Shown: positions 35,726 to 57,298 of the stretch, piece after piece
How positions within the stretch are numbered: the stretch's first letter is position 1
How the letters are laid out: each line of letters starts with the position of its first letter
From: a bacterium
Lineage (GTDB): Bacteria > Armatimonadota > UBA5829
Assembly: GCA_021373255.1 (NCBI GenBank)
Contig: JAJFTD010000029.1
Location: forward strand, 1-59,792
Reading direction: 5' to 3'
Length of the DNA stretch: 59,792 nt
Program-made: the position numbers and the translations under genes
The notes under the pieces: model-generated
Database searches by the model: none
What the model saw: the letters and a program-made list of their open reading frames with translations, nothing else
Told to the model about the DNA's origin: nothing

Positions 35726-38700
35726 ATGCCCTCATGCTTTCCTGCTGGTTTCCATCCGGCTATTGAGAAATGGTTTGTAGAAAAGTTCGGTCAGCCAACC
35801 CAACCGCAAAAGCTGGGATGGCCTCTTATTGACCGTGGTATAAACACCCTTATCCTCGCACCGACTGGTTCCGGTAAGACACTTGCGGCATTCCTTGCAG
35901 GTATAAATAGAGTCATTCTTGATCTCGTATCCGGTCAAAACACTGAGGGTGGGGTAGAGATTCTCTATATTTCACCTCTAAAGGCTCTTAACTATGACAT
36001 CGAGCGTAACCTCGCGTCCCCGCTTCTCGAGATTAACAAAACGGCAAAAGCTATCGATTACCAGATACCTGAAATCACGACTGCCGTTCGTACCGGCGAC
36101 ACCCCTGCAAATGAGCGCAGAAAAATGCTCAAAAAGCCTCCGCATATCCTGATTACAACCCCAGAATCACTTCACATTATGCTCACATCATCCGCGCGAA
36201 AGATCCTTGAGACGGTGCGATATGTGATTGTGGACGAAATCCATGCCCTCTGTCCGAACAAGCGGGGTGTCTTTCTATCGGTTCTTTTGGAAAGGCTTGA
36301 GAATGTATGCATGAACTCGCCTGTCAGAATCGGGCTTTCAGCGACGCAAAAACCGCTTTCAGAAGTAGCTCGTTTTCTAGGAGGGTTTGATAATAATGGT
36401 GAGCCGCGTCACGTCGAAATTGTCGATACAGGTATACGCAGACAGGTGGATCTGAAAGTCGTTTGCACATGCGAAGATCTGCGACATCCTGAAGACGGCT
36501 CCGTATGGCCCTCGATATATCGCAGGCTGCTGGATCTTGTTCACTCGCACAAGTCGACTATTATATTCGCAAACACGCGGCGGATTGTCGAAAAAATCAC
36601 TCTTGGAGTAAATGATCTGGCAGGTGAGGAGATTGTAAAACCTCATCACGGAAGCGTATCTGCCAGCATCCGACGAATTACGGAGACTGCGCTTAAGGAT
36701 GGCACACTAAAGGGAGTTGTGGCGACCGGAACACTCGAGCTTGGAATCGATATGGGCGCGGTCGAACTTGTGTGCCAGGTTGAATCTCCAAAGGAGGTCT
36801 CGCGTGGTCTACAGAGAGTTGGACGTGCAGGACATGTTCACACAGCGGTAAGCAAAGGCCGGGTGATCGCGAAGACTAATCCCGATCTGGTTGAGGCTGT
36901 AAGTATTGCTGAGGGTATGCTTGAAGGAGATGTTGAGCCGATTAGTGTGCCTAAGAATTGCCTCGATATTCTTGCCCAGCAGATCGTTGCGATGGCTGCA
37001 ATTGAGGATACTAATTGGGAGGATGTCTATCGCACCATTAAACGCACATATACTTTCCGAGAGCTTTCGGAGGAGGCGTTTAATCTGACGCTTCAGCTTG
37101 TGACGGGCAGGTATCCGTCCAAAGCATTCAAAGATCTCAGAGCAAGAGTGTCTCTCGATCGGGTTACAGGTCGTATATCACCTCTGCCTGGCTCGCAGCG
37201 GCTGGTGATAGCAAACGGTGGCGCGATTCCTGACACAGGTGAGTATGGTGTTTATCTTGCAGATGCACATGTGAAAATCGGAGAGCTTGACGAGGAGTTT
37301 GTTTACGAATCTCGTGAGGGTGACACGTTTTCACTTGGCACGAACAATTGGAAGATTCAAAAAATTGATGCCGACAAAGTAATTGTCTCGCATAGCTCAC
37401 CAATTCAAGCGCGGATGCCGTTTTGGCGGGGTGAAAGTGTCCCCAGGTCGGCTCGCTCAGGCAGAAGAATGGGCGAGATGCTGCGGAAGATCGCAGAGAT
37501 GGGTGAAGACGCTCGGGAATGGGTGCTTGAAAACTTGCCAGTGGATATGAGGTCAGCAGCCAATCTTTGCGACTTTGTAAAAGTGCAAACCGGGCTCACA
37601 GACGACTCAGGGCTCCCGACCGATAAACGAATTGTGCTGGAAAGTTTTATTGACGAACTCGGCAGTACGCGACTCGCGCTCTTAAGTGTTTTCGGAGGGA
37701 GAATCCATCACGCTCTACGAATCGCATTCTCCGCACTTATGAAAAAAGAACTAGGTGTAATTCCAGAGACAGTCAGCGGCGATAATGGGATTCTTTTCAA
37801 ATTGCCTGAGGGTGATGCTCAACCTCCATTTGGGTTATTCAAAAAACTCACGCCGGAACTTGCGTATGAGTTAATAGCTGAAGATTTACCAGACACAGCT
37901 CTTTTCGGCCTGCGATTCAGGCAAAACGCTGCACGGGCGTTGTTATTGCCGGGGCCTGGTGTCGGCAAGCGAACTCCACTCTGGCTCCAGCGTCTCAAAT
38001 CGAAGGACTTGTTGCACATAGCCAAGTCATTTGATGGTTTTCCGATAGTCGTGGAAACGCTGAGGGAATGCTTACAGGATTATCTGGAAATAAGCGAGCT
38101 TCAAGAAATACTCCGGCAAGTGCAATCTGGCGAGATCGAGTTGAGTATAGTCGAACGGCAGTTACCATCTCCTTTCACGTCAACAATGCTCTTCGATTTC
38201 CAGATGATATATCAATACGAGTGGGATACTCCAAAGACCTTAAGCAAAAAGAGAAATGCTCCATCTGAACGCAGGCTAGTCGATGAGTTGGTTGACGGTA
38301 AAGTCAATCGAATGCTTGATGAGCGGGCAATATCTGATCTGGATAATCAGCTTCAATGCAGGGGAGAACGCAGCCGTGCTCGAACAGCGGAAGAGTTATA
38401 CGAACTCGTAAGGCAGTTGGGAGATATTCCCGAAGAGGATGCCAATTCCAGATGCACCGAACCAGAGATGCTGGATGCATTGATCGAGGAAGGCAGGCTC
38501 GTACGAGTAACTTTTTCCAATGCAAAGCACCCTGATAAGTTAGTAGCATGCGATTATCTGGACGAATATCTACAAGCTACATCAAATGATGATCAGCGAT
38601 ATCTAGCTCTTGCCGGTATCATCGAAAGGCATATATCGAACAGGGGAGTTGTGATTTCATCCGATATTTCCCCAACCTATGGCTTGCCTATAGAGTTTGT

Positions 38701-40162
38701 AGCGAATATTGTAAAAGGAATTGCTCAACAAGGCGGCCTTATAGAAATCCCGCCTGCACCTGATACGCAAGAACCGCGCTGGGTAAATCCCGACAACCTC
38801 GAAATAATCTACAGGCGCACCCTTGCAATGCAAAAGCTGGAAGCAAAACCAGCCTCCCCTGAGCAATATCAGGCTTTTTTACTCAAATGGCAGCATTTGC
38901 ACCCCGATAGCAAACTCCATGGCCAGGATGGCGTTCGCACAGCACTCCGGCAGCTAGAGGCGACTAGAATACCTTATAGTGTGTGGGAGCCGGATATTCT
39001 TGCAAGAAGAGTGGGGGATTTCAGAGCTGAACATATAGATAATTTGTGCAATTCGGCTGAATTCATTTGGGTCGGTGAATCGGCAAATACAAAGAAACCA
39101 GGCAGCGTCGCATTTCTTGCGAGAGAAGGTCTTCAGGAACTCTACTCGATTATATTCAAAGATAAATCTAATGATAGTGCTTCCGAACAGAGAAACGCCA
39201 TCTACCAGGCACTAAAGAACCGCGGAGCATCTTTTGCCATTGATCTTGTCCTCGATACAGGGCTCGATTCGCGTATTGTGCAGGGTGTTTTGTGGGAGAT
39301 GATCTGGTCGGGAGATGTTACGCACGACTATTTCAAAACTCTCAGATCCGGCAAACCGCCTGTTATATCGCCTCAAAGACACGATCAATTTTCTACAAAA
39401 GTGGTCGACAAACGGCAGTTCTATCGTGCAAGGTCTCGCATAGCCAGGACATTTACAAATCCACCCAGTGCAAATCCGGGGAGGTGGGTGCTTCTTTCGT
39501 CATTATGTAATTACAACGTCAATGAACAGGATTCGCTTGAAATCTACGCAAGGATTCTGTTAGAGCGATACGGTATTGTTGCGAAAGAGCTTGTGTATAG
39601 GACAGGCGAGATTGATATTGTGTGGAACGACCTTTATGAGATATATAAGCGAATGGAGCTATCAGGCGAGATCGAGCGTGGATATTTTGTAGATGGGCTT
39701 GGCGGTGCGCAGTTCGGGTTGCCTGAAGCTGTGGATGTGTTGCTTGGCAGGTCAAGGGTGGGGTTTATCAGTTCCAGTGCTGATGATTACCCGATACTTG
39801 TTAATTCCTGTGATCCTGCGTATTTATACTCGGCAGCAGGGCCATTTGACGTCAGCTCTTTCCGAATGAACAGATTGACTTCAAATTATGCGGTTCTCTT
39901 CGGTGGTCAGCCCGTGCTCACGCTTGAACTCGGTTCCGGCACACTGAGGATGAGAGAAGATACCAATAAAGACGACATGCCTAAATTCGTATCTGCTCTC
40001 ACCCAGCTTATAAACAGCCCATGGCCTATTCGACCATACCGTAAAGTAGAAATAGCATCATTCGATACTCAGCCTATAATAAACAGTCCAATAGATGCTG
40101 TTTTACGCTCTTGTGGTTTTGAAGAGGAAAACAACAAACTTGTGCTCAGAAGCATCAGTTAA
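35726..40162 (+). CDS. lhr: Lhr-type large superfamily 2 helicase
   Basis: A 1478-residue protein, close to the length of full Lhr (about 1500). Motifs in order: Q-like WPLI, Walker A APTGSGKTLAAF near residue 48, TTPESLHIML (motif Ib region), DExH box VDEIHAL near residue 165, SAT-like GLSATQKPL (motif III), FANTRR (motif IV), ATGTLELGIDMG (motif V) and QRVGRAGH (motif VI). A winged-helix and beta-barrel region and the large Lhr C-terminal part follow. Lhr proteins are 3'-5' DNA helicases linked to DNA repair and crosslink resistance. Ribosome site GGAG precedes ATG 35726. The gene stands alone and ends one base before the convergent MATE gene. Confidence 0.93.
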   Translation: MPSCFPAGFHPAIEKWFVEKFGQPTQPQKLGWPLIDRGINTLILAPTGSGKTLAAFLAGINRVILDLVSGQNTEGGVEILYISPLKALNYDIERNLASPLLEINKTAKAIDYQIPEITTAVRTGDTPANERRKMLKKPPHILITTPESLHIMLTSSARKILETVRYVIVDEIHALCPNKRGVFLSVLLERLENVCMNSPVRIGLSATQKPLSEVARFLGGFDNNGEPRHVEIVDTGIRRQVDLKVVCTCEDLRHPEDGSVWPSIYRRLLDLVHSHKSTIIFANTRRIVEKITLGVNDLAGEEIVKPHHGSVSASIRRITETALKDGTLKGVVATGTLELGIDMGAVELVCQVESPKEVSRGLQRVGRAGHVHTAVSKGRVIAKTNPDLVEAVSIAEGMLEGDVEPISVPKNCLDILAQQIVAMAAIEDTNWEDVYRTIKRTYTFRELSEEAFNLTLQLVTGRYPSKAFKDLRARVSLDRVTGRISPLPGSQRLVIANGGAIPDTGEYGVYLADAHVKIGELDEEFVYESREGDTFSLGTNNWKIQKIDADKVIVSHSSPIQARMPFWRGESVPRSARSGRRMGEMLRKIAEMGEDAREWVLENLPVDMRSAANLCDFVKVQTGLTDDSGLPTDKRIVLESFIDELGSTRLALLSVFGGRIHHALRIAFSALMKKELGVIPETVSGDNGILFKLPEGDAQPPFGLFKKLTPELAYELIAEDLPDTALFGLRFRQNAARALLLPGPGVGKRTPLWLQRLKSKDLLHIAKSFDGFPIVVETLRECLQDYLEISELQEILRQVQSGEIELSIVERQLPSPFTSTMLFDFQMIYQYEWDTPKTLSKKRNAPSERRLVDELVDGKVNRMLDERAISDLDNQLQCRGERSRARTAEELYELVRQLGDIPEEDANSRCTEPEMLDALIEEGRLVRVTFSNAKHPDKLVACDYLDEYLQATSNDDQRYLALAGIIERHISNRGVVISSDISPTYGLPIEFVANIVKGIAQQGGLIEIPPAPDTQEPRWVNPDNLEIIYRRTLAMQKLEAKPASPEQYQAFLLKWQHLHPDSKLHGQDGVRTALRQLEATRIPYSVWEPDILARRVGDFRAEHIDNLCNSAEFIWVGESANTKKPGSVAFLAREGLQELYSIIFKDKSNDSASEQRNAIYQALKNRGASFAIDLVLDTGLDSRIVQGVLWEMIWSGDVTHDYFKTLRSGKPPVISPQRHDQFSTKVVDKRQFYRARSRIARTFTNPPSANPGRWVLLSSLCNYNVNEQDSLEIYARILLERYGIVAKELVYRTGEIDIVWNDLYEIYKRMELSGEIERGYFVDGLGGAQFGLPEAVDVLLGRSRVGFISSSADDYPILVNSCDPAYLYSAAGPFDVSSFRMNRLTSNYAVLFGGQPVLTLELGSGTLRMREDTNKDDMPKFVSALTQLINSPWPIRPYRKVEIASFDTQPIINSPIDAVLRSCGFEEENNKLVLRSIS

Positions 40163-43777: not shown

Positions 43778-43874
43778 TGGCGGGGATGTGTGGGAATCGA
43801 ACCCACCCGGCGCCTTATTCAGACGTCACACAGGTTTTGAAGACCAGGCGAGCCACCAGACCCGAACCACCCCC
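43778..43874 (-). tRNA. selC: tRNA-Sec (anticodon TCA)
   Basis: On the minus strand the anticodon loop reads CTTCAAA with TCA. The gene is long (94 bases plus encoded CCA), with discriminator G and an extended variable arm (loop TGAATAA) typical of tRNA-Sec. The 8-base acceptor GGGGGTGG pairs with ACATCCCC except for one G-T wobble and a terminal G-A mismatch. The T arm is GTGGG TTCGATT CCCAC. It faces away from the Sec genes, and has its own promoter. Presence of selA, selD and selB within 8 kb makes the call firm. Confidence 0.94.
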
Positions 43875-44056: not shown

Positions 44057-44470
44057 GTGCGGAAGAAAAACATTCGACACACGTTAAGATTGCTGGGCAT
44101 CGTTGTGCTGGTGACTCTGTCTGCTGGGATGATCTGCTATTCTGCGCATTCTGTTCGCTACCCGGTTGATGGTGTTCCGACAAGCGAACTAACCATAACT
44201 GATCTCAGCTTGACTCACAGTATAGAGCGTAGTTCTGATGGTGAATTGACGAACCCTTATGCCGAAGAGACCATGCTTCCGGCGCAGCCGATATTCGTTG
44301 TTGCTTCAGCTACTCCTTTAGAACATATGAGCCTGATATCAGCTTTTCAACAGGATTCGGTGCAGGATTTGGCAGCAAAGAAAGCCAAGCCCAAAAAGCC
44401 ATCGCCTAAGAAGCCGTCACCAAAGAAACCAAAAAAGAAACCTGGAAATGGCAAAGCGTGCCCCACTTGA
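44057..44470 (+). CDS. Small exported or anchored protein with Lys/Pro tail
   Basis: A 137-residue protein of unknown family, starting at GTG 44057 after a GGGGAG ribosome site. A single N-terminal hydrophobic segment (LLGIVVLVTLSAGMICYS) acts as a signal or anchor. The middle is polar. The C-terminus is a basic repeat tract built of KKPSPKKPSPKKPKKKPG, ending in a single Cys (GKACPT). Such tails often bind nucleic acid, polyanions or the cell wall. It ends 24 bases before the NapH-like gene and probably shares its transcript, which gives a hint of a redox or envelope role. Confidence 0.65.
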   Translation: MRKKNIRHTLRLLGIVVLVTLSAGMICYSAHSVRYPVDGVPTSELTITDLSLTHSIERSSDGELTNPYAEETMLPAQPIFVVASATPLEHMSLISAFQQDSVQDLAAKKAKPKKPSPKKPSPKKPKKKPGNGKACPT

Positions 44471-44493
44471 ATTTAGCCTGAGGAAAGTTGGTT

Positions 44494-45327
44494 ATGGGGT
44501 CCATAATCACACGAGCAAAGAAAATCCGAATATGGCGCAGGCTTACTCAGTCGTCTGCTTTGATATTGCTGAACCTCCAGTTTCTCAATATCTGGTTCGC
44601 GAATCTGCAGCTTACTGGATGTCGCGTAGCCTGTTCTCCTGTGTTTTATTGCCACTCCTGCCCCTGGGCCACAATGGCGTGCCCGTTGGGTGTGCTTGTC
44701 AACTTCTCACGGCTTCAGATATTCCCATTCATCACACTAGGGATATTGGGACTGGTAGGAACGTTTGGCGGAAGGCTTGTATGCGGTTGGTTGTGTCCCT
44801 TCGGCCTGCTTCAAGACATACTCCACAAGATCCCGACGCCCAAGTTTTCAATTCCATCTAGACTTACTTATACAAAATACGTGGTGCTGGTAGTCTTTGT
44901 GCTTGCAGTGCCGTTTTTCTGGCCTAATGCACCTTACACATTCTGTGACGGCTGTCCCTCAGGTGTTCTCGAATCGACTATTCCGTGGGCATCTGTGGCA
45001 CACTGGCATGCAACTCCTGGAATCTTCAACGGGTTTACTGCAAGGTTCTTTATCAGAATGTCTATTCTCCTGGCAACACTTATATTCTCTGTGCTTGTGT
45101 CACGAGGATTCTGCCGTATTTTCTGCCCGTTGGGCGCGATTTTCGGGCTTTTCAACAGGTTCTCGCTGTTCCGCTTCAATCTGGCGCACGAGAAGTGCAA
45201 CAACTGCGGCGTATGCAGCAAGCTATGCCCGGTAGATATAGATCCAATTGCTCAGATGAACACAGCCGAGTGCATTCGCTGCAATGAGTGCACAATCAAC
45301 AAACACATCGAAATGGGAACCAAGTAG
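44494..45327 (+). CDS. NapH-like membrane 4Fe-4S protein
   Basis: A 277-residue protein with about five membrane segments. It has the conserved CxxxxxxPCP-type Cys motifs of the NapH/CcoG/NosR group, here CHSCPWATMACPLG and CGWLCPFGLLQD, with CDGCPSG and CRIFCPLGAIFG in later loops. Two C-terminal ferredoxin-type clusters are visible: CNNCGVCSKLCPVDI and CIRCNECTI. Such proteins move electrons from the quinol pool to exported or membrane enzymes. ATG 44494 is chosen since GAGGAAAG lies 8 bases upstream. It ends just before selA. In this neighbourhood it could supply electrons to a selenium-containing or extracytoplasmic redox protein; this is inference. Confidence 0.88.
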   Translation: MGSIITRAKKIRIWRRLTQSSALILLNLQFLNIWFANLQLTGCRVACSPVFYCHSCPWATMACPLGVLVNFSRLQIFPFITLGILGLVGTFGGRLVCGWLCPFGLLQDILHKIPTPKFSIPSRLTYTKYVVLVVFVLAVPFFWPNAPYTFCDGCPSGVLESTIPWASVAHWHATPGIFNGFTARFFIRMSILLATLIFSVLVSRGFCRIFCPLGAIFGLFNRFSLFRFNLAHEKCNNCGVCSKLCPVDIDPIAQMNTAECIRCNECTINKHIEMGTK

Positions 45328-45329
45328 GA

Positions 45330-46754
45330 ATGACATTGGAATCTAACATACTTAGAATGCTTCCGTCGGTAGAGGAATTGATGAACACCCCGGAAGTCGC
45401 GCAGCTAGCGGAAGAGCACGACCGTGATTTAGTGGTCCATGCTGCCCGATCTGTGATTGATTCGACAAGATCAGAGATAATCAAGTCTGGCCAACTAGAT
45501 AAAGCCGAGGAAATAGTTTCGCTCAAGAGCATCAGCTCTCGGGTGGTGTCTTGTGTGGAAGCAAAATTCTCTCCTTCACTGCGTTGGGCGATCAATGCTG
45601 CCGGGATTATTTTGCATACGGGGCTTGGCCGTGCAGTAATGTCCGAAAAGGCCATTGAGGCTGTAAACGATGTCATAAAGGGTTATTGCACGCTCGCCAC
45701 AGACATCGAAAAAGGGCAGCGCTGCTCCCGTGATGTTCACTTCAGCGACTTGCTTTGTGAAATCACCGGAGCCGAAGCAGCCACTGCCGCAAACAACAAC
45801 GCCGCTGCGACTATGCTTGTTCTAAACACCCTCGCAAAAGGTAAAGAAGTCATCATCTCACGTGGCCAGCTTGTCGAGATCGGCGGATCATTCCGAATGC
45901 CGGATGTGATGGAGTCCAGTGGAGCCATTATGCGGGAAGTCGGCACCACCAACAAGACCCACCTCAGAGACTACGCAGCAGCCATCAACGAGAACACCGG
46001 TGCGATCCTCCGTGTGCACATGAGCAATTACCGTATAGTCGGCTTCTTTGAAGAACCCTCGATTGAAGACATGGCAAAACTGGCAAGGGAGCATGGGTTG
46101 CCCATAATTGATGATTTAGGGAGCGGCGCGCTATTCGATCTCAGAGAATTCGGCCTTGAAAGCGAGCCAATGGTCCGTGACAGCATCAAAGAAGGAGTCG
46201 ATGTCGCCTGCTTCAGTGGTGACAAGCTCATCGGTGGTCCACAAGCAGGCATAATGGTGGGTAAGGCCAATGTCATACGCCACATAAAGAAAAATCCACT
46301 GGCTAGAGCCCTACGTATAGGCAAAATGGAAGTTGCAGCCCTTGAGGCTACGTTACGCCTATTCCTTGAACCCGGCAAGCTCAAACAAACACATCCAACA
46401 TACAGGATGCTTTCTCTAACTGTAGACGAGATCCAGACACGAGCGCAAGCCGTAGCAAATCATCTACTCGATTCCATTTCCGACCACGCCGAAATATCAG
46501 TTATCGACGGCAGTTCTCAGGTCGGCAGTGGCTCAGTGCCGGCAGAGATGATGCCTACCAGGTTATTGGGTGTAAGACCTATATCGATGTCCGCAGACGC
46601 ACTGGCAAGGAAATTGCGCCGTAGCAGCCCACCTATATTCGCCCGAATTCACCAAGAGGCAGTTCTGTTCGATTTCCGTACTATTCAGCCGAACGAAGAC
46701 GAGTTGGTGGAAAGGGCTCTTCGGGAGATTCTGGTAACTGTCACGCTCGATTGA
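45330..46754 (+). CDS. selA: L-seryl-tRNA(Sec) selenium transferase
   Basis: A 474-residue PLP enzyme that converts Ser-tRNA(Sec) to Sec-tRNA(Sec) with selenophosphate. N-terminal domain LPSVEELMNTPEV is family-typical, followed by NAAGIILHTGLGRAVMSE near residue 90, then NNNAAATMLVLNTLA and the LPIIDDLGSGALFDL cofactor Asp motif. The PLP-binding Lys lies in CFSGDKLIGGPQAG near residue 295, then KKNPLARALRIGKM. The length is normal. ATG 45330 follows AAGTAGGA; longer upstream starts lie in the previous gene. It is in the same direction as selD and selB. Confidence 0.97.
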   Translation: MTLESNILRMLPSVEELMNTPEVAQLAEEHDRDLVVHAARSVIDSTRSEIIKSGQLDKAEEIVSLKSISSRVVSCVEAKFSPSLRWAINAAGIILHTGLGRAVMSEKAIEAVNDVIKGYCTLATDIEKGQRCSRDVHFSDLLCEITGAEAATAANNNAAATMLVLNTLAKGKEVIISRGQLVEIGGSFRMPDVMESSGAIMREVGTTNKTHLRDYAAAINENTGAILRVHMSNYRIVGFFEEPSIEDMAKLAREHGLPIIDDLGSGALFDLREFGLESEPMVRDSIKEGVDVACFSGDKLIGGPQAGIMVGKANVIRHIKKNPLARALRIGKMEVAALEATLRLFLEPGKLKQTHPTYRMLSLTVDEIQTRAQAVANHLLDSISDHAEISVIDGSSQVGSGSVPAEMMPTRLLGVRPISMSADALARKLRRSSPPIFARIHQEAVLFDFRTIQPNEDELVERALREILVTVTLD

Positions 46755-46778: not shown

Positions 46779-48251
46779 ATGAAAATACACCATGTGCTTT
46801 GCTCCATCGCTTTATTATTCTTCATTGGGGCCGTTCCCAGCATTGCCGCCATTGAAGATGAGCAGGGTGGTTGGCACAAGGTCCAGAGTTCCGGCGTTGT
46901 TATTGAGTTCCAAGATGGATTAGGACCACTCGCCCGACAGCTCATGCCTGAAGCCATAAAACTTGCACAGGATGGCCCTCAAGCCCAACGCGAGCGTGAG
47001 ATCAACAAGCTAATGATGAGGAAGAATGAGATACTCCGGTTCGTCGCAGCTCAGTTGGACCTTGCGAAACCGAACAAAGAGTCAATTAATTACTTTAATA
47101 GTATCGGGCAGGTGATGACCGCGTTTCCCGGTCCCAGGCATATAAGACTCTGGCATACACAGATGCTAAGGGATGCTGTTAAGGTAGGGGATGGGGTTCC
47201 GTGCGTCATATACAACCCCGAAAGTGATCAGTTCGACACTCTCTTTCATGCGAAGATGTTTAATGGGATTGTGTTTGCCCCGGCTCCGTTGTCTATCCCA
47301 ATCGACGTGAGTTTTGCAAAGCCACAGTTGGATCAAGCTCTCGAATACCTTAATGCCCAACAGAAAAAAGTTGATCTGAACTCGACCAGACACGCTTTCT
47401 TCCATGAGATAACTGAAATAATGATCATTACGAGCACGCCTCTCAAGGGATGCTGCTTCCGCCGGTGGATCTGTGATGGTATGGCCGATTATGTCGGTGA
47501 ACTGTGCCTGGGTAGGTTCGTGGGCAAGTCGGTCATGAAAAAATATATGGAAGACCAGGTATTACGCATAAATGAGTTTGCCTCACTGCGCGAGCAAGTG
47601 GATCTCGTGGGTTGGAGGGCTGTGGAGTGGGAAAACGAGCTTCCAAATAAGATGAGAAGTGAACTAATTGACCCTCACTATACTTTCGCGGCATACGAAA
47701 TACGAGAACTGGTAAAGCGACACGGCCCAGATGTACTTCCAAAGATATTTAGAGAGATACGCAAGGTGAGAGCCGATGGAGGTCAAATGATCCTTGATGC
47801 TATCTCGAAGGTTACATGTGAGGACTTTGCTGCTCGACTCTCGGCATACGGAGCTAAAAATAACGACGAATTCAAAGGTATTGGATTCTTTCAGTTTCAA
47901 GTATTCTACCTTTTAGGAGATAATACTGCACCGATTACCAATGGCACTGAAGTACCATTAATCACAGATGGAGAGCATGGTATCGCGGGCTCGGTCTTTG
48001 TTGATACATTGAATTATCCACTGGAGGTAAAGTGGGAAGTCTCGGGTGCTTCCAATAGAAAATGGGTCGGTGGCAGAAAGGAGAAGTCAAATATAGTGTC
48101 CGAAGATGAATATCCACTTATACAATATGTAATGTCGGAGTTGTTTTCTTCCGGCAAGCTCAAGCCAGGGGATAACACCCTGTCGCTCTATCTGCAGGGC
48201 AAGTTAGCTAAGCAAGTGAAATTCAAGTTGGTTCCTGCGTCTGGATCATAA
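46779..48251 (+). CDS. Exported protein with degenerate peptidase-MA-like motif
   Basis: A 490-residue protein between selA and selD. A signal peptide (VLCSIALLFFIGAVPSIAA) is clear. Near residue 210 the segment AFFHEITEIMI resembles the HExxH zinc motif of gluzincin peptidases, but the second His is Glu. About 20 residues further, ICDGMADYVGEL resembles the 'EGxAxY' third-ligand helix, with Asp replacing Glu. So the fold may be kept while zinc chemistry is altered or lost. The C-terminal 110 residues look like a beta-sandwich. It is unrelated to Sec synthesis in any known way. Ribosome site AAGGAG precedes the ATG. Confidence 0.72.
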   Translation: MKIHHVLCSIALLFFIGAVPSIAAIEDEQGGWHKVQSSGVVIEFQDGLGPLARQLMPEAIKLAQDGPQAQREREINKLMMRKNEILRFVAAQLDLAKPNKESINYFNSIGQVMTAFPGPRHIRLWHTQMLRDAVKVGDGVPCVIYNPESDQFDTLFHAKMFNGIVFAPAPLSIPIDVSFAKPQLDQALEYLNAQQKKVDLNSTRHAFFHEITEIMIITSTPLKGCCFRRWICDGMADYVGELCLGRFVGKSVMKKYMEDQVLRINEFASLREQVDLVGWRAVEWENELPNKMRSELIDPHYTFAAYEIRELVKRHGPDVLPKIFREIRKVRADGGQMILDAISKVTCEDFAARLSAYGAKNNDEFKGIGFFQFQVFYLLGDNTAPITNGTEVPLITDGEHGIAGSVFVDTLNYPLEVKWEVSGASNRKWVGGRKEKSNIVSEDEYPLIQYVMSELFSSGKLKPGDNTLSLYLQGKLAKQVKFKLVPASGS

Positions 48252-48301: not shown

Positions 48302-49900
48302 GTGATCGACCTCGAAAAAAGAAAAAGGATAATGCAGCGCTCAGTCAAGCTCGGCCATTGCATTTGCAACCCCAAGCAAGGGTGCCCGTGCATCGTATTC
48401 AAGACAAAAGACGTCTGCCCATGTGCTGGGGAGCGCCTTGAACAGGCAGTCGAGGATGTGGCTCTGACCACATTGGTCGAAAAAGCTGGCTGCGCCTCTA
48501 AGATAAACCAAAACGATCTGAAGAAGGTTCTCACTGGTCTTCCTGAAATATCGAATCCCAATGTGCTGGTCGGGACAAACACATGTGATGATGCCGGTGT
48601 TTATAAGTTAAGCGATGAGATGGCCCTTGTTCAGACCGTGGATGTCTTTACTCCCAGCGTTGACGACCCTTACACATTTGGTCAAATTGCAGCGGCTAAT
48701 TCTCTGAGTGATGTATACGCGATGGGTGGCGAACCCTTAACGGCGCTGTCGGTGATCGGGTTTCCGATTGAGACTCTGAGCCACCGTGTTATGACCCAGA
48801 TGCTCCGCGGCGGGATGGACAAGATGACAGAAGCCGGGGTGGCAATAGTAGGCGGCCACAGCATCAACGACAAAGAGCCCAAGTTCGGCTATGCTGTCAC
48901 TGGCGTTGTAAACCCGTCGAGAATAATAACCAATGCCAAGGCGCGCCCTGGCGACCTGCTGGTGCTGACCAAGCCGCTTGGTGTCGGCATCATCAGCTTC
49001 GCCGGACAAATGGGCATGGCTTCACCATCGGTGTTGGATGCGGCCGCCAGTTCCATGACCGAGCTCAATAAAGCAGCCGCAGAAGTGATGCTGAAAGTCG
49101 GGGTGGAGGCGGCGACTGATGTGACTGGTTTCGGCCTGCTCGGGCACCTGGGCGAGATGGCGACCCAAAGCGGAGTAACGGCGGAGATTTACTTCGATCA
49201 GGTTCCTGTATTCGATGAAGTGATGGACTACGTATCGCGCGGAGTTATTTCAGGAGGAGTTGAGCGCAATAAGGAGCATTCGTCCAAATTGGTAGTTGCC
49301 GATGCTGATATCACAGAAGAGATGGCATGCGTACTCTATGATCCTCAGACTTCTGGTGGTCTATTAATCGCAGTGCCAGAGGATAAAGTCGAGGCGTTAC
49401 TTAATAGTCTGCTCGATCGTGGAAACAGGCACGCATGCGTTATCGGAAGATTACTGCCTGAATCAGAGGCGCGCGTATTGCTCAAGACAACAGCCTTCGG
49501 CTCATTCCGAGAACAGAATTTGCAAGACACGGGGTTAAGGGAGGAAAACACTATGGACAAAATCAAGACTGATGGATGCTGCTGCTCAAACGCGGAGACT
49601 GATGGCAATGGTCACCTGCCCGGCCTTGCGACTGCCACGAGTCAGGACACACAGAAGATGATGGGCGCATTTATGAACTCGGTCTATGCTGAAGGTGCTA
49701 TCACCTCCCGGAATAAGGAACTTCTTGCAATCGCTTTATCCGTGCTGTCGAAATGCGAGCCATGTGTCAAAATCCACATCAATGAAGCGAAATCTATGGG
49801 TGTCAGCGAAGATGAGATAAGTGAGGCTATCTGGATGGCGATATCCTTTGGCGGCGCACCTGTGATGATGTTCTATCGTTCTATTACGGAGAAAGCCTGA
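48302..49900 (+). CDS. selD: Selenophosphate synthase with Cys-rich N-terminus and in-frame AhpD-like domain
   Basis: A 532-residue reading frame. Residues 1-45 form an unusual Cys-rich segment (GHCICNPKQGCPC, then VCPCAGE). The SelD core spans about 60-400: active Cys-Lys motif KAGCASKINQ (the second Cys of the usual GCxCK is Ser), the ATP-binding DDAGVY, then TVDVFTP, DVYAMGG and GGHSIND. After residue 415 the frame runs on into an AhpD/carboxymuconolactone-decarboxylase-like domain with a CxxC (LSKCEPCVKIH). An ATG at 49553 has a strong ribosome site (AAGGGAGG) 8 bases upstream, so the 115-residue AhpD part may also be made alone. The N-terminal start could be GTG 48302 or ATG 48332. Confidence 0.92.
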   Translation: MIDLEKRKRIMQRSVKLGHCICNPKQGCPCIVFKTKDVCPCAGERLEQAVEDVALTTLVEKAGCASKINQNDLKKVLTGLPEISNPNVLVGTNTCDDAGVYKLSDEMALVQTVDVFTPSVDDPYTFGQIAAANSLSDVYAMGGEPLTALSVIGFPIETLSHRVMTQMLRGGMDKMTEAGVAIVGGHSINDKEPKFGYAVTGVVNPSRIITNAKARPGDLLVLTKPLGVGIISFAGQMGMASPSVLDAAASSMTELNKAAAEVMLKVGVEAATDVTGFGLLGHLGEMATQSGVTAEIYFDQVPVFDEVMDYVSRGVISGGVERNKEHSSKLVVADADITEEMACVLYDPQTSGGLLIAVPEDKVEALLNSLLDRGNRHACVIGRLLPESEARVLLKTTAFGSFREQNLQDTGLREENTMDKIKTDGCCCSNAETDGNGHLPGLATATSQDTQKMMGAFMNSVYAEGAITSRNKELLAIALSVLSKCEPCVKIHINEAKSMGVSEDEISEAIWMAISFGGAPVMMFYRSITEKA

Positions 49901-49904
49901 TAGA

Positions 49905-51851
49905 ATGCGTGTAGAAAACAGCCACGCAATAATAGGCACCGCAGGCCACATAGATCATGGCAAGACTGCCTTGATTAAGGCTCTTACTGGTATTGATGTA
50001 GATACCCTCGCCGAAGAAAAGCGCCGTGGAATTACCATCGAACTCGGCTTCGCATTTCTCGACGCACCTGTCCTTGATAAGGAGATCATCTTTATAGATG
50101 TGCCTGGCCACGAAAAGCTCATCAAGACAATGGTTGCCGGAGCAAGCAACATAGATGCCGTGTTGTTCGTCATTGCAGCCGACGATGGAATCAACGTGCA
50201 GACCCGAGAGCATTTCGATATCCTCCAGCTCCTCGCTATCGAGAATGGGGTCATCGCGCTGACAAAATCTGATTTAGTAGACAAAGATCACATCAGCGCC
50301 GTCATCAATGACATCAGAAATCTAGTTGCCGGGACATTCCTGGAAAGCGCGCCGATTATACCTGTCTCATCCGTCACAGGCGAAGGTGTAGAAGAGATAA
50401 AAGCCGCGCTTGTAAAAGCGGCTAGCAAGATACGCAAACGCCGAGACACCGGCATTTTCAGAATGCCCATAGACAGAGCATTTACCATGCAGGGGTTCGG
50501 AACCGTAATTGCCGGCACCATATTATCCGGGCAGGTAAATGTTGGAGACAAGATCGAGATATTGCCTGATGGGCTCACAACCCGTGTCCGTGGGATTCAG
50601 GTTCATGCAAAAAGCATTCAGGAATCGCACATCGGCATTCGCACCGCCATTAATTTGCAAGATATAAAGAAAGAACAGCTTCGACGAGGCCAGACTGCAG
50701 TAATGCCGGGCTCCGTATCTCCGACCACCCGGTTGGATGCACAATTTCATCTCCTGCTCAGTTGCAGCGAAGACCTGAAGAATAGAACGAGAATCCGTCT
50801 TCACATCGCCGCAGATGAGGTGATAGGGCGGCTCATCCTGCTTGATAGTGATAGGTTGTCGCCTGGTCAGACGGCAGTCGTTCAATTCGTGCTGGAATCG
50901 CCCACTGTTGCGCTGCCAAAGGATCGCTATGTTATTCGTACGTTCTCATCTCTGATGACAATCGGAGGTGGCGTTATCCTGGACGCGCAGCCCAAGTCGC
51001 ACAAACGTTTCGACACATTCGCAGTAGACGCGCTGCGGAAGCTAAAAGGCGGGATTAATGATGTTGTAGAGCAGGCCTTTGTAAAATCAGGCGTTGTCCC
51101 ATTAAGTGTTGCAGAGGTTGCCGGTTCGATAGGTGAAAGTGAGGATGAGGTCGTTGAAGTTGTGCAACAATTGCTGGATGAAGAGAAACTTTTCAAAATT
51201 ACTCCCAAAGCTGCAGAAGATGTCGTCGACATCAGACGCGGCAAGTTTATCTCTGCCGAAACATATTCTGCACTAGTCGATAAGCTGCTCGCCATTCTCG
51301 AAAACTATTACACAAATAACCCTTATCGGGTGTTCATGCCATCGTCCGAACTCCAATCTCGATTCTGTAAATTGGCTGATAAGCAGGTCTATATCGCTAT
51401 TATTAGCAATCTCAGTGAGCAGGATGTTCTGCGTGCGATGGGTGTAAAGATCGGGAAAAAAGATAGGCAGCCACAGTGGCAGCCAGGTGAGCATGACCTT
51501 GCTGAAAAGATAGAGAAGATTTTCGAGAACGAGTGCTACTCAACAAAACCGGAAGATGAACTGCAAGGCGAATTGAAGATCAAGCTCAATGTATTTGAAA
51601 ACATCATGACTGCCTTAGCTGACCAGGGGCTGCTTGTCAGGTTGGGGGATAGAGTTACTTATCACAAAAAGCATCTTCAGTCTGCGCGGGAGTTCGTAAC
51701 AGGCTATATCCGAGAGAATGGCAGCATCACCGCTCCCGAATTGCGTGACAAGCTGGGCGTTACTCGCAAATATGCAGTTGCGATACTCGAATATCTCGAT
51801 AATACACAAGTTACCCGGAGACTTGGAGATAAACGTGTGCTCAAATCTTAG
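49905..51851 (+). CDS. selB: Selenocysteine-specific elongation factor
   Basis: A 648-residue GTPase that brings Sec-tRNA(Sec) to UGA codons marked by a SECIS element. GTPase motifs: G1 GTAGHIDHGKTALIKAL, G2 RRGITIELGFAFL, G3 DVPGHEKLIKTM, G4 ALTKSDLVDKD. Domains II and III follow (MQGFGTVIAGTILSG). The C-terminal 250 residues contain the winged-helix repeats that bind the SECIS RNA, ending with AVAILEYLDNTQVTRRLGDKR. Length matches bacterial SelB. It starts 4 bases after selD and completes the Sec decoding set. Confidence 0.97.
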   Translation: MRVENSHAIIGTAGHIDHGKTALIKALTGIDVDTLAEEKRRGITIELGFAFLDAPVLDKEIIFIDVPGHEKLIKTMVAGASNIDAVLFVIAADDGINVQTREHFDILQLLAIENGVIALTKSDLVDKDHISAVINDIRNLVAGTFLESAPIIPVSSVTGEGVEEIKAALVKAASKIRKRRDTGIFRMPIDRAFTMQGFGTVIAGTILSGQVNVGDKIEILPDGLTTRVRGIQVHAKSIQESHIGIRTAINLQDIKKEQLRRGQTAVMPGSVSPTTRLDAQFHLLLSCSEDLKNRTRIRLHIAADEVIGRLILLDSDRLSPGQTAVVQFVLESPTVALPKDRYVIRTFSSLMTIGGGVILDAQPKSHKRFDTFAVDALRKLKGGINDVVEQAFVKSGVVPLSVAEVAGSIGESEDEVVEVVQQLLDEEKLFKITPKAAEDVVDIRRGKFISAETYSALVDKLLAILENYYTNNPYRVFMPSSELQSRFCKLADKQVYIAIISNLSEQDVLRAMGVKIGKKDRQPQWQPGEHDLAEKIEKIFENECYSTKPEDELQGELKIKLNVFENIMTALADQGLLVRLGDRVTYHKKHLQSAREFVTGYIRENGSITAPELRDKLGVTRKYAVAILEYLDNTQVTRRLGDKRVLKS

Positions 51852-51885: not shown

Positions 51886-52172
51886 ATGATGAGCATTAGC
51901 GGGATCGGTTTGAATGATGTTCAGGCTGTCTACAGCGGCCCGGAAGGTGATCTGTGGGAGCTAATTATGGGCCGACAGGTGCACATCGGTGGTTTCAAGT
52001 CATCAATGGACCTTATTGAGAAAGCTGGTATAGGTTCGCTTCAGATGCCCTGAGAATCATCGGCTATAACTCCGATTTATTCCAATATCTGGCAGGCGAG
52101 ATGGTGTTCGCCCAGTAACTCGCCCACGCAGGAAAGATCATTCAGGGACTTTTCGTTACCCGAAAGATATAA
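51886..52172 (+). pseudogene. SAM methyltransferase remnant, both ends kept and middle lost
   Basis: The first ~50 codons from ATG 51886 (ribosome site GGGGAG) give a typical N-terminus, with GLNDVQAVYSGPEGDLWE and GRQVHIGGFKSSMDLIEKAG. From 52041, in another frame, the C-terminus follows: DALRIIGYNSDLFQYLAGE, then an in-frame TAA, then LAHAGKIIQGLFVTRKI and a stop at 52170-52172. From memory, class I SAM methyltransferases of the dimethylglycine/sarcosine type found near selB have these two ends separated by about 180 residues containing the SAM-binding core. That core is gone. It is a decayed gene with an internal deletion, a frame change and a stop. Confidence 0.8.
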
Positions 52173-52187: not shown

Positions 52188-53450
52188 ATGAGCAAATGCA
52201 GCGGTGACAAGCAGGTTAAGGCCAAAAATTGCGATCCGTGTTCTCCTCCCAGCGTTGACTGCTGCTCCAGTGCAGTCACCACAGAGCAGAACGATAGCCC
52301 GACATTGTGGTTTGAGAACATGATCGATAATTGCTACGACTACGCTATCGATGCGAAGTCAAACAGCAGACCGATTGTAGGCATTATGTGTGAGTATGCC
52401 CCCCGAGAGCTTATAATGGCTGCGGGAGGTGTCCCCGTTTGCTTGTGCGGCGGATCTGCAAAGACTATTCCTGCGGCTGAAGATTACCTGCCTGCCAATC
52501 TATGCCCACTCATCAAATCTACATTCGGTTACCACATCACCAAAACAAATCCGTTCCTCGAAATGGCTGATCTCGTTGTCGCAGAGACCACATGCGACGG
52601 CAAGAAAAAGATGTTCGAGCTGATGGCTGAGACCAAAGCCGTTCATCTGATGGAATTGCCGCAGAAGCAAGACGATAGCGAAGCTTTCGAGCATTGGGTA
52701 ACTGAGATACATAAGCTCAAGGCTGAATTGGAGACTCGTTTCGATGTGCAGATCACTCCTGAGAAAATTCGTGAAGCAAGCCGAATAATGAACCGAGAAA
52801 GGAATCTTCGCCGTGGGCTTGCCGGGTTGATGAAAGCAGATGCGCCGCCCTTGACCGGACGCCAGCTTCTTAACTTCAAAAGCATCATCTCCGGCATCCC
52901 CACAGACTTGGAGAAATACGAAGAAGCAGCGGAGATTCTTCGTAGTCATTCGCGCAATGGCGACATGTCTTCCCGTGTTCGAGTCCTGCTGACGGGTGTT
53001 CCGGTGGTCCACGGCGCGGAACGGGTAGTCGACATCATTGAAGAAAGCGGCGGTCTTATAGTGTGCATGGAGAACTGCACGGGCCTAAAGCCCATTTTGG
53101 AGGATGTGGATCTCAATGCCGCCGATCCTATTCGCGCTCTCGCAAAGAAGTATTTTCACATCCACTGTGCTGTGATGACCCGCAACACCCGCCGTATTGA
53201 TTACCTCCGCGCACTAACCGCCGAGTATCGAGCAGAGTGTGTCATCGACCTCGTATGGCAGGCATGCGTCACCTATGATATTGAATCTTACCAGGTTCGG
53301 CGGCTCGCGGAGCAGGAATTGCATGTTCCTTATCTGCGCATCGAGACAGACTACTCACCATCAGACTCCGCGCGAATAGCCGTTAGAGTAGAAGCACTCT
53401 TTGAAACGCTTCGCAGTAGCTATCGCACTGGACAGCCGTGCCGGAAATGA
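52188..53450 (+). CDS. 2-hydroxyacyl-CoA dehydratase D-component-like / double-cubane protein
   Basis: A 420-residue Fe-S protein of the HgdB/FldB/BcrC family. The N-terminal 30 residues are Cys-rich (KNCDPCSPP, VDCCSS). The conserved core holds PRELIMAAGGVPVCLCG, then CPLIKSTFGY and ADLVVAETTCDGKKKMFE, which provide cluster ligands. Further Cys lie in GGLIVCMENCTG and at VWQACVTYD. Because it is a single subunit with its own activase, it fits the double-cubane cluster protein type, which can reduce small difficult substrates, more than a two-subunit dehydratase. The substrate cannot be named. Ribosome site GAGGAAAAG precedes ATG 52188. Confidence 0.9.
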   Translation: MSKCSGDKQVKAKNCDPCSPPSVDCCSSAVTTEQNDSPTLWFENMIDNCYDYAIDAKSNSRPIVGIMCEYAPRELIMAAGGVPVCLCGGSAKTIPAAEDYLPANLCPLIKSTFGYHITKTNPFLEMADLVVAETTCDGKKKMFELMAETKAVHLMELPQKQDDSEAFEHWVTEIHKLKAELETRFDVQITPEKIREASRIMNRERNLRRGLAGLMKADAPPLTGRQLLNFKSIISGIPTDLEKYEEAAEILRSHSRNGDMSSRVRVLLTGVPVVHGAERVVDIIEESGGLIVCMENCTGLKPILEDVDLNAADPIRALAKKYFHIHCAVMTRNTRRIDYLRALTAEYRAECVIDLVWQACVTYDIESYQVRRLAEQELHVPYLRIETDYSPSDSARIAVRVEALFETLRSSYRTGQPCRK

Positions 53451-53558
53451 AGAAGCATTATTGCCGAATTGCGACGGCTTTTCTTTACGGTTGATCCATG
53501 TCCTACTCGTTACACGCTTGAGTGCACTTATAGAAATTGCAATCGGACGGAGGAGAAG

Positions 53559-54332
53559 ATGATCGCAGTTGGAGTAGACGCAGGGTCCAGAGCCATTAAG
53601 ATCGTGTTGATGGACTCGGACACTCGGAGCATATTGGCCACAGGGTTAGTGAAGCAAGGTGTTAACAGTGATGAGCTGACCTCGCATCTTCTGGATTGTC
53701 TTCTTAATGAGTGTGCCCTTAACAGAGATGACATTGGTTATGTTGTCGCAACCGGCTACGCACGAAATCGTATCAGTATCGCTGACACGACCATAACTGA
53801 AATCACCTGCCACGCTTGCGGTGTCCATCACGTGGTTCCAGACGCACGGACAGTTGTTGAGATAGGTGGCCAGGACAGTAAATTCCTCCACCTAGACCCT
53901 ACTGGAGCCGTCCATGATTTCGCGATGAACGATCGGTGTGCAGCCGGCACCGGCCGGTTCCTTGAGGTCGTTTCCGAGCGCCTTGGGGTGGGGCTCGAGG
54001 ACCTGGGCCAAATGTCGGCTAGAAGCAGCAATCCAGCGGTTATCAGCAGCATGTGTATTGTCTTCGCTGAAACAGAGATCATCGGGCTTCTCTCCGCTGG
54101 TGCTGCGCCTGAGGACATCGTCGCAGGCGTTCAGAACGCTATAGTCACCCGCGTTGCCAGCATGGCTGGAAGAAGCATCACACCCCCCGTGGTTTTCACC
54201 GGTGGCGTGGCATTAGTTCCGGGAATGAGCCAGGCATTGGAAAGACTCATCGGCCAAAGCGTAACCGTCGCCCCCAACCCGCAGATGACAGGCGCACTTG
54301 GGGCCGCAATCCTCGCATCAAAGCAGGCATAG
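53559..54332 (+). CDS. ATP-dependent activase of the dehydratase family (BadF/HgdC type)
   Basis: A 257-residue ASKHA-fold ATPase. It begins GVDAGSRAIKIVLMD, a phosphate-binding loop, then VVATGYARNRI and EITCHACGVHHV. The 4Fe-4S ligand Cys residues of the homodimer are in ITCHACG and in NDRCAAGTGRFLEVV. GGQDSKFLHLD and VVFTGGVALVPGM are further family motifs. It transfers one high-potential electron to its partner protein with ATP hydrolysis. ATG 53559 follows GGAGGAG; upstream in-frame codons back to the previous UGA are rejected. The partner is the adjacent upstream gene. Confidence 0.93.
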   Translation: MIAVGVDAGSRAIKIVLMDSDTRSILATGLVKQGVNSDELTSHLLDCLLNECALNRDDIGYVVATGYARNRISIADTTITEITCHACGVHHVVPDARTVVEIGGQDSKFLHLDPTGAVHDFAMNDRCAAGTGRFLEVVSERLGVGLEDLGQMSARSSNPAVISSMCIVFAETEIIGLLSAGAAPEDIVAGVQNAIVTRVASMAGRSITPPVVFTGGVALVPGMSQALERLIGQSVTVAPNPQMTGALGAAILASKQA

Positions 54333-54554
54333 TTAAATATATCTGCAAAGACTGAGAATATACAACTTTTGATGGATATATATAACAAGCAATTACATAA
54401 ATTACTTTGTAATAATTCTATATGCCTAGAAGGAATATTGAAACTTGGCGAGCAAGTGTAAACTTGTTAAATAAGAATTGCTGAGTCGCACGCGTCTGTT
54501 CGAGCATTACGATGAGAACTAACCCACTTCTCGTTTACAAGAAGGAGAGTGCGT

Positions 54555-57224
54555 ATGAGTAGGTTCATTGCTGTACTTATTGTCGCGTTGGCACTTATTA
54601 CGCTGGCGTCACCGTTGTTTGCGGAAGACACAGCCACTCCGGCAGCTTCAGACATCTTCCTGTCTGGTACAGTTATTGACAAAAATGGAAAACCAGTTGC
54701 TAAAGCCAAGCTTACAGTGCAGGTTTACACACAAGGCAAGGAAAAGTCTGAGGACCTCGTTTCGGACAAAGCAGGTAAGTTCAAGTCCACGCTAGCACTT
54801 GATCCAAAGAGCCCTTATGCATCGATCTTAGCATTGGCGGATGGCTATTGCAGCTCAAGACAATACATCTCCCAACAGAATATATCCAATGCAACCATCA
54901 CTCTCTGGCCGGGCTACACTTTAATAGGGAAGATTGTAGATGAGAAGGGCCGATTGCTTGCAGGCGCGAAGGTCGATCTGAATGGCTGTTATGCTTATGC
55001 CAATAATAGCAGCGTCCATGCTGAGTTGCCAGATAAGCTCAGATCAGTGGTAATCGGCAAAGACGGGGTATTCAAGTTTAGCAATCTTCCTTACCCAGAT
55101 GATTTTGAGTACATTGATGCAAATATATCTGTTTCCGCACCTGGACGCGCGCTGATCCACAAGAGCATACAGAAAGATGCCATGCGCGAAGTCGTTAAAA
55201 TTATTGATCCACTTGAGTGCAAACTTGACGGCACGCTCTATCTTCCTGGAAAAACAGGTTTTGCCCCTGAGGGAACCGGAATAGTAATTCAAGTTCCGGT
55301 AGACCGGGGTTCTGAGTCTAGGAGCACAAATGTCGGAAAAGACGGTACATTCCACTTTACCCAGCTTCCTCCAGGAAAAGTCAATGTGATGCTTTCTGGA
55401 AATTACCGTGGCCAGGGGAAAAGCGAGCCAATGGCGTGGGCGCTTCCAGCCGTGATGGATGTTGCCCTCTCTCACAAGCAAGCAAAGAACATTGAACTCG
55501 TGATGGTGCCCGGTGCCCTGATAAAGGGAAAGATTTTGGACAAAGCCACAGGAAATGGTGTGGCGTCCGCGCGTCTCTCAATAAACCACCCCGGCAGGCC
55601 TGAAAACACTTTCCCCGACAATGCTGCTACCGATGATAAGGGTGAGTTCAACATCCGCGTGGTAGATGGGCAAACAACTATAACCGTAGACGGGGTTGAT
55701 GGTCAGCCGAGAATCTGGTTCCAATATGATGAGAGACCTACCATAAATGTAAATGTGGCTGAGGGTGAAGAGAAGTCAGATGTGGCGCTCAAGATCGATC
55801 TTAATCAGAACAATGAATGTTCATGGGATGTTCAGAGTAAACCTGTTCCGCATGATTTTGAACTCAAGCCTGGTACCTATGACTTGGTATGGGATCCTGA
55901 TGTCGATTGCTCGGACGCTGTCTATATATCAAGAAAGTATGAAGGCGACAAAGTCAATGGTATTGTAAAGAAGCTTCCAGAGTTGGCCTCTACCAAGGCT
56001 AAACGCCTGGCATATCCGCTGGATGGCTCAGAAAACGATGGTCTTCTTTTTGTCGTCATCGATGAATCTAAAGGCACCGGTAAAGGTTGGGATACCGCAT
56101 ACATTGATATGAACCGCAACGGAGACCTTACTGATGATGAGCCAGTTCATTTTATAATTCGTAAAAATTACAACATGGTGAAAACTGACTGGTTTACCGC
56201 GCAGGCCCACCAGGGTCTCAGTGAAGGAGATCGGACAGATCATCCGATGCAGATAAGGCTCGAGATATACGGAGATCCAAACAATCTGTATGTCCAGATT
56301 CAGCGAAAGGGCGCATGGAAGGGCACTATAGACTCTAACAAGGGAATGGTTAATTGCATAGCAGCAGATACGACTTCAAATGGTGTATGCAGCGACCTTG
56401 GAGATATAAACGATAGATTAGATTGTAAATGCATCGGTGACTCAATCTTTGTCGACCTCAACGGATTCGGCAGGGTTGTAGCGACAAGCTGGAGCCCGCA
56501 TTGTATAGATCTCAATAAGATCACAAAAGTAGCTGATAGCTTCTACATAATAAAAGTAAGCCCTGTTGGTAATAGAATAACTGTGGAGCCATATACCGGT
56601 GATCTAGGCCAGTTAGTCGTGCGGGGTGTAAATATACAAGGTCGCAGAGCATCTACTGAAAGCATGAGCGTGATAAGTAAGACAGGATATTACTCGTTTA
56701 GTAATTGCGATAATAGGCCCATCACCTTACCGGCAGGTAAATACAACATCTCCTCATGCGAGATGACTCTCGATACTCCAAACAAGTTAAACGTAACTTG
56801 TAGCCCCGATTCATCAGTGACGATTGATGCTGACAAAATGTCGATGGTTACCATCGCTGGTAAGCTCTCGCTTGCGATTAATCTTGCTGATAAAGAATTG
56901 ATCCTAAAGCCTGGAGTATCAAATACCATCAGTTGGGACATCAAAGTTGGAGGCAAGACAACCGTCAGTGCTTTTGGTGATAGTAACCAGTCAAATCCAC
57001 CGAAAGTGAAATTCCTTAAGAACGGAAAGCTATTATATACCACCACAGCGGGCTATACTTGAGGCGGCGGATGCAGGTACGTCGTTGGCGTGCCGTCCAT
57101 TAAGCCCGGAAAGTATACGATTCAACTATCATTCAACACTAAGAGCCCGCTGGGCGTATTGACGTCAAAGAGAGAGTTCATAATAGAGGACACAAAGAAA
57201 AAGAAGGATAATCAGAAGCATTAA
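54555..57224 (+). CDS. Secreted multidomain protein, candidate selenoprotein (UGA at 57060)
   Basis: An 889-residue product if the UGA at 57060-57062 is read as Sec, or 835 residues if it stops there. A signal peptide (FIAVLIVALALITLASPLFA) is followed by several carboxypeptidase-regulatory-like beta domains (FLSGTVIDKNGKPVAKAKL, LIGKIVDEKGRLLAGAKV, LIKGKILDKATGNGVASA). An EF-hand-like loop DMNRNGDLTDDE lies near residue 518. The last domain reads KNGKLLYTTTAGYT, then UGA, then GGGCRYVVGVP and IKPGKYTIQLSF, ending at TAA 57222-57224. The 53 codons after UGA look like the missing strands of the same beta domain. Start ATG 54555 follows AAGGAG by 7 bases. Family unknown; it may bind or oxidise a ligand outside the cytosol. 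Confidence 0.7.
57063..57098 (+). promoter_or_regulatory. Possible bacterial SECIS stem-loop
   Basis: Directly after the UGA, GGCGGC (57063-57068) can pair with GCCG-T-CC (57092-57098). Inside, ATGC (57071-57074) pairs with GCGT (57088-57091), or GATG (57070-57073) with CGTC (57080-57083) giving the loop CAGGTA. Both foldings place GGU (57076-57078) in the loop, as in bacterial SECIS elements. The GGU is 13 bases after UGA, slightly closer than the usual range. Supports, but does not prove, Sec insertion. Confidence 0.5.
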
Positions 57225-57261: not shown

Positions 57262-57298
57262 AAGAGAACCCCCCAGCAAAACCGGGGGTTCTCTTTTT
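57262..57298 (+). terminator. Rho-independent terminator of the Sec-island transcript
   Basis: AGAGAACCCCC (57263-57273) pairs with GGGGGTTCTCT (57284-57294), with a 10-base loop and a T tract to 57298. It lies 37 bases after the TAA that ends the extended frame and about 200 bases after the UGA, which fits a longer coding region. Confidence 0.9.

Follow-up and report, generated by a model that had tools for sequence, protein, structure and literature searches.

The locus and its gene content

The window, by which we mean the whole stretch of 59,792 nucleotides of DNA that was analysed, carries genes for the synthesis and insertion of selenocysteine (Sec) and, downstream of these, a long gene with an in-frame UGA codon (Table 1). 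A preliminary description had pointed out that the frame stays open for 53 codons beyond this UGA, closes with TAA and is followed by a strong terminator, and that the residue order would be Sec-Gly-Gly-Gly-Cys, all of which is confirmed in the sequence; it had also placed selA, selB, selC and selD within 14 kb, and we find them within approximately 13.3 kb. An alternative in-frame start, GTG, lies at 54549, and an AAGGAG motif stands about 7 nt 5' of the ATG. Given its signal peptide, the protein would be expected to reside outside the cytoplasm. Its N-terminal half matches PF13620 in three stretches (E 2e-22), while the middle region, which has no match in Pfam or NCBIfam, contains a motif that is conserved in two of our alignments (A2 and A5). 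The hairpin of the terminator-like element is palindromic and so could serve both strands, and a minus-strand match was also found.

Table 1 Features of the window that relate to the putative selenoprotein gene
Feature	Position	Strand	Basis and remarks
tRNA-Sec (selC)	43782..43874	-	Rfam RF01852, 67.4 bits; ARAGORN
NapH/MauN-like membrane ferredoxin	44488..45327	+	also in sel islands of G005, G034, G102
selA	45288..46754	+	TIGR00474, 561.6 bits
selD with C-terminal AhpD/CMD domain	48302..49900	+	TIGR00476, E 2.8e-115; PF02627
selB	49905..51851	+	TIGR00475, 350 bits; lineage common to G005, G015, G276, G139, G115
Double-cubane-cluster reductase	52188..53450	+	NF040772, 420.6 bits
Activase	53469..54332	+	TIGR00241
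Putative selenoprotein gene	54555..57224	+	889 residues from ATG, through UGA 57060 to TAA 57222
Predicted signal peptide MSRFIAVLIVALALITLASPLFA	54555..54623	+	by eye from sequence; relatives have similar leaders
N-terminal half, CarboxypepD_reg (transthyretin-like) repeats	54650..55850 (approximate limits)	+	Pfam PF13620
Middle all-beta region	55836..56860	+	motif DESKGxGKGYDTAYxDxNRNGDLTDD; AF2 model
C-terminal Ig-like/E-set domain with Sec loop	56862..57203	+	model residues 343-455
UGA, putative selenocysteine codon	57060..57062	+	residue 836 from ATG; TGA in all Sec-type homologs
Cys codon of U-G-G-G-C motif	57072..57074	+	Cys at U+4 in 50/68 unique copies
Coding extension after UGA	57063..57224	+	53 codons plus TAA (57222-57224)
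Putative bSECIS hairpin GGUACGUC-GUU-GGCGUGCC	57076..57094	+	8 bp, 3-nt loop with initial G
Intrinsic-terminator-like hairpin and T-run	57262..57295	+	-20.9 kcal/mol, z -5.9

The reductase and activase genes sit just upstream of the Sec gene, and a role for this pair in selenium metabolism is possible and remains untested. The SelD protein has a Cys-rich N-terminus, and its fusion to an AhpD domain follows the same arrangement in the other sel islands that we read. Three further coding regions lie among these genes. Between selA and selD, an exported-looking protein of 490 residues (46779-48251) has no Pfam or NCBIfam match. Beside the NapH-like gene, a small protein (44057-44470) starts with a hydrophobic segment near its N-terminus and is rich in Lys and Pro at its C-terminus, with a counterpart at the equivalent place in genome G005 (L141:12305-12778). 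Finally, positions 51886-52160 hold the remnant of a DVU_1556-like methyltransferase, in which a large internal deletion has left the start and the final ~45 residues, now in different frames; an intact counterpart is present in the sel island of G005 (L141:3462-4265).

Conservation of the UGA codon and of the hairpin that follows it

Full-length relatives of the protein were recovered at 38-41% identity (E to 3.7e-183). When the 151 nearest genomes were read through stops, long relatives appeared at 33-41% identity, and most matches contained exactly one internal TGA. This TGA falls at residue 838 of P0001 (836 from the ATG) in 10/10 Sec copies examined from other genomes of the class, and the alignment extends beyond it. 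Within the collection of named genomes, the closer relatives are Armatimonadota metagenome-assembled genomes (MAGs), and the more distant ones, from Phycisphaerae, Pirellulales, Verrucomicrobia and Lentisphaerae, also have TGA at this column (e.g. MPFG-U-GGTCGYTWRVP). The check proposed in the preliminary description, that relatives should have UGA or Cys at the column, was therefore met, and none of the outcomes that would have refuted the proposal occurred: similarity continues past the UGA rather than ending there, and a sense codon misread at 57060 could not account for the TGA that independent genomes from three phyla have at this column.

The extent of the family became apparent from searches with an 85-position profile built on the Sec domain (A3), which returned 40 TGA-bearing matches in 23/291 genomes of Armatimonadota, 53 in 32/294 genomes of Planctomycetota and 13 in 7/338 genomes of Verrucomicrobiota, making 106 matches in 62 genomes of three phyla. 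Apart from TGA, the 106 matches contained one internal stop, a TAA accompanied by TGA in the same match, and no TAG. The codon was confirmed directly as TGA for those matches that were made into loci, and for the remainder we rely on the stop count of the search tool. One Lentisphaerae genome also possesses a family member, and up to seven copies occur per genome. Several motif branches can be distinguished (UGGTCxYSWRVP, UGFTC, UGGGGWASVKP, the latter of ~220 residues, and GGCUGGG). The U column and the residues that follow it are among the most conserved positions, and usually 39-58 residues follow the UGA in most copies.

Some copies depart from the common architecture. The Sec domain is followed by ankyrin-like repeats in L116:1588-2208, by apparent transmembrane segments in L046:3530-5848 and by an H-X9-DG-type tail in L099:247-2148. 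In L130 and L133, from a planctomycetotal branch, Cys stands immediately 5' of Sec (GGCUGGG) and there is none at U+4; L124 has CC where this branch has CU, and is possibly a Cys version of it.

Bacterial SECIS (bSECIS) elements have been described as stems of 4-16 bp with a loop of 3-9 nt containing an early G, situated 16-37 nt from the UGA and with a folding energy of -7.5 kcal/mol or below (PMC13188914). The hairpin of the window satisfies these rules (8 bp, loop GUU, 21 nt after the UGA, -11.4 kcal/mol). However, taken singly its fold is not significant (z about -0.5 to -1.8), and without homologs this hairpin and the open stretch around it would be weak evidence; the case consequently shifts to the homologs. 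In an alignment of 19 post-UGA sequences the hairpin lies in register, with six core pairs standard in 19/19 and compensatory changes at five of them; 87.5% of core cells are paired, compared to 23-54% when the partner strand is slid, and the covariation score was matched by 0/500 shuffles. Pairing that might be imposed by the encoded peptide was controlled for by resampling synonymous codons. Under this control the mean best bSECIS-type hairpin across 68 unique copies reaches -8.35 kcal/mol, against -3.58 +/- 0.34 in resampled sequences, and the strict -7.5 kcal/mol rule is passed by 69% of copies and 14% of controls. With the register fixed, the proportion of core cells that pair in 31 held-out copies is 73% versus 54 +/- 3%, a weaker result than that of the free-register test because the UGF-type branch uses a shifted register. 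The strict scorer finds no hairpin in a few copies (e.g. L133 and L138). Most homologs without Sec lack a comparable hairpin in the right place; two of them, L096 and L127, do reach energies of -8.5 and -9.2, but at other positions.

The distribution of the Sec machinery follows the same codon. The domain is present in 29 Armatimonadota genomes; tRNA-Sec or selB occurs in every one of the 23 that contain TGA copies, compared to 3/6 of those with only non-TGA copies (Fisher p ~0.005, computed by hand), and some of the MAGs with TGA copies lack one of the two genes. The other three of these six (G125, G264, G279) lack both tRNA-Sec and selB, and have Cys at the UGA column. The copy in G125 (L087, CGGVC; HFGCGGVCEYSGRV) is the cleanest of these, and the only clean residue-for-residue replacement of Sec by Cys in an otherwise typical motif. 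Both L096 and L106 are also Cys homologs from genomes without selB and tRNA-Sec, and Cys likewise occupies the column in L124, L127 and L135 of Planctomycetota. We reached seven distant genomes by locus, and in one of these (G295, a fragmented MAG with a TGA copy) neither Sec gene was detected at the cut-offs used.

The homologs exceed what chance would produce, because all Sec-type relatives have their TGA at this one column, similarity continues beyond it and the hairpin covaries. Judging from these comparisons, the UGA at 57060 is almost certainly decoded as selenocysteine, although no mass spectrometry, selenium labelling or other proof at the level of the protein is available.

Fold of the Sec domain and its relation to known selenoproteins

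The preliminary description had inferred a beta-sandwich around the UGA, and structure prediction supports this. An AlphaFold2 model built from an alignment of 12 sequences predicts that the C-terminal 462 residues are all-beta (pLDDT 86.7, pTM 0.81), with a last domain that VIA-align assigns as Ig-like/E-set (Z 9.2 to SGBP-B, and 8.6 to the C-terminal domain of galactose oxidase). In this model the U-G-G-G-C motif is placed on a loop of the Ig-like domain, and the loop (residues 409-412) is its least certain part, with pLDDT below 50. When the C-terminal domain was modelled alone (pLDDT 83.4), VIA-align gave no Z above 7.5, and a Foldseek search with the whole model returned generic Ig and complement matches only. 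An Ig-like fold by itself implies no function.

Most known selenoproteins have the thioredoxin fold. Those with the UxxC motif (Trx, TlpA-like and DsbA/DsbG-like proteins) resemble the present family in that Sec is followed closely by Cys and that many are exported redox proteins, yet the family differs in its all-beta Ig-like domain and its U-x3-C spacing. A closer likeness may be sought in DUF1573 (PF07610), a listed bacterial selenoprotein family whose domain is Ig-like and often exported. However, its motif is UGC rather than UGGxC, the Sec of the window's protein sits in another domain, close to the C-terminal end, and PF07610 gave no match in 18 copies up to E 0.5-1. The N-terminal domain of DsbD provides a further parallel, being an Ig-fold domain with redox-active Cys residues outside the cytoplasm; the analogy is functional only, as we found no sequence match, and the absence of DsbD among the fold matches listed by VIA-align excludes nothing. 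The recently predicted selenoprotein ribbon_DG_selen (NF049953, hypothetical protein DG) has the motif GUxG, and the motif string here also reads G-U-x-G, but a whole-genome search with its model found nothing at the gene itself (C121:54549-57224) and only below-cut-off matches elsewhere.

More generally, we found no model for the Sec-bearing domain in NCBIfam 20.0 (June 2026) or Pfam-A when 18 copies were scanned, nor in NCBIfam for ten more proteins; these scans recovered only the N-terminal repeats and weak MG2 or PKD matches below cut-off. A 2026 review lists 119 selenoprotein families (PMC13188914, Table 1), none of which combines this motif with this fold, although candidates without names in a survey of groundwater MAGs that it cites (Deng et al.) may overlap with ours. 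For the relevant taxa and terms, the deep-Sep study (PMC12013277) contains no matching family, and the main text of a paper on planctomycete selenoproteins (PMC4807772) names other families; our negative result for the literature covers open-access papers only. The earlier suggestion of an undescribed selenoprotein therefore stands in so far as no family in NCBIfam, Pfam or the review corresponds to it, but what was taken for a single candidate belongs to a large family. By sequence, this appears to be a large group of exported Ig-like selenoproteins that the catalogues searched do not cover. Annotation truncated at the UGA has hidden the family in roughly one in ten of the sampled genomes of Armatimonadota and Planctomycetota, and its profile is a new one for finding selenoproteins in metagenomes.

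Possible function and the selenium gene island

We propose that SelA, SelB, SelD and tRNA-Sec, encoded 3-13 kb upstream, would decode the UGA at 57060, with the hairpin at 57076-57094 directing Sec insertion as a bSECIS. The predicted product is an exported all-beta protein of 889 residues, whose Ig-like last domain would expose a Sec-Gly-Gly-Gly-Cys loop, and in which Sec and the downstream Cys could form a reversible selenenylsulfide and lend the protein thiol/selenol redox activity outside the cytoplasm. We hold this account as a whole (Sec decoding by this machinery via the bSECIS, an exported Ig-like product, membership of a large family) with high confidence, the redox step being included as an inference. 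Considered separately, the reversible Sec-Cys selenenylsulfide and the extracytoplasmic redox activity that it would give are supported less well, and we lean towards them only slightly, in the absence of biochemical data on any member. The Gly-Gly followed by Cys after Sec suggests that the loop is flexible enough for a selenenylsulfide to form, and it is this arrangement, together with the signal peptide, that favours redox chemistry. The Sec-Cys pair raised in the preliminary description is indeed typical: 50/68 unique copies have Cys at U+4, and the number rises to 56/68 when positions U+4 to U+6 are all allowed. Nevertheless, Cys is missing from these positions in 12/68, among them the close relatives L029 and L030, and a selenenylsulfide therefore cannot be general. 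The evidence base is wholly genomic, and consists mostly of MAGs.

The main rival to a redox function is metal binding in the envelope, in which Sec, aided by Cys and groups nearby, would coordinate a soft metal (copper or mercury, for example) and there would be no dithiol-type redox chemistry. Sec is retained in copies that have no Cys, and the weak fold matches of the domain include CopC (Z 6.8) and FetP/FtrA-P19 (Z up to 6.9), which are copper proteins of the periplasm. However, these proteins share the Ig-like fold at VIA-align Z values (6.5-6.9) within the range of common Ig-like arrangements, they contain no Sec, their copper ligands are not conserved in A3, and no conserved set of His or Met accompanies Sec in that profile; we consider metal binding unlikely. 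Somewhat less likely still is that the UGA acts as a selenium-dependent switch, yielding a useful short secreted protein at low selenium and the full domain at high selenium. Decoding of UGA is always in competition with termination, and the codon lies near the C-terminus in most copies, yet a stop at this point would deprive the Ig-like domain of its last strands and probably cause it to misfold, and the residues beyond the U column are too well conserved to fit easily with this idea. That the UGA is an ordinary stop, or marks a pseudogene, followed by a decayed remnant or chance similarity, could appeal to the shortness of the extension and the unexceptional hairpin of the window alone, but is ruled out by conservation as TGA across the 106 matches, similarity on both sides of the codon and compensatory changes in the RNA. 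Reading of UGA as Trp, or as some other residue, through an altered code or a suppressor tRNA, would equally leave the frame open, and is ruled out in turn by the TGA codons that end other genes in these genomes, by the bSECIS-like hairpin, by the presence of tRNA-Sec and selB, and by the Cys, not Trp, found at the column where both are lacking.

Returning to Sec decoding, the genes around the codon recur in other genomes. In G005 the order is NapH-like gene, small protein, two Sec genes, selA, selD, selB, methyltransferase and double-cubane protein, and the window carries the same set, but with the Sec gene after the activase. The Sec genes stand immediately 5' of selA-selD-selB in G115 and G139, and near the sel genes on the same contig in G276, G034, G102 and G143. 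G005, G276 and G102 likewise have the double-cubane reductase in their sel islands, and the island of G102 also has the activase. In a SelB tree, the SelB of the window groups with those of the five genomes given in Table 1, apart from a second SelB of the same assembly. On account of this recurrent gene order and SelB clade, the island resembles a unit that has a SelB lineage to itself, although the link is not strict, as G016 has a TGA copy and the other SelB type. No shared gene neighbourhood was found in two loci from outside Armatimonadota (L044 and L048). The family may explain why many of these bacteria retain Sec, since several have its genes in the sel operon. We can suggest only tentatively, as a possibility that we would not at present favour, that a dedicated selenium module has this family as its main client, the module comprising the separate SelB lineage, the AhpD-fused SelD, the NapH-like ferredoxin, the double-cubane reductase and the exported Ig-like selenoproteins, and forming an envelope seleno-redox system without a thioredoxin-fold component.

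The contig of the window may be mis-binned or partly transferred, which would leave our inference about the gene unaffected. A large helicase (35726-40162) is 83% identical to its counterpart in G015, from another family, and 69% identical to that in G004, from the same genus. The second selB of the assembly (G000:C194:3309-5174; L148:3282-5192) is 37% identical to that of the window and groups with those of genus relatives, and one tRNA-Sec was found in this assembly with two selB genes.
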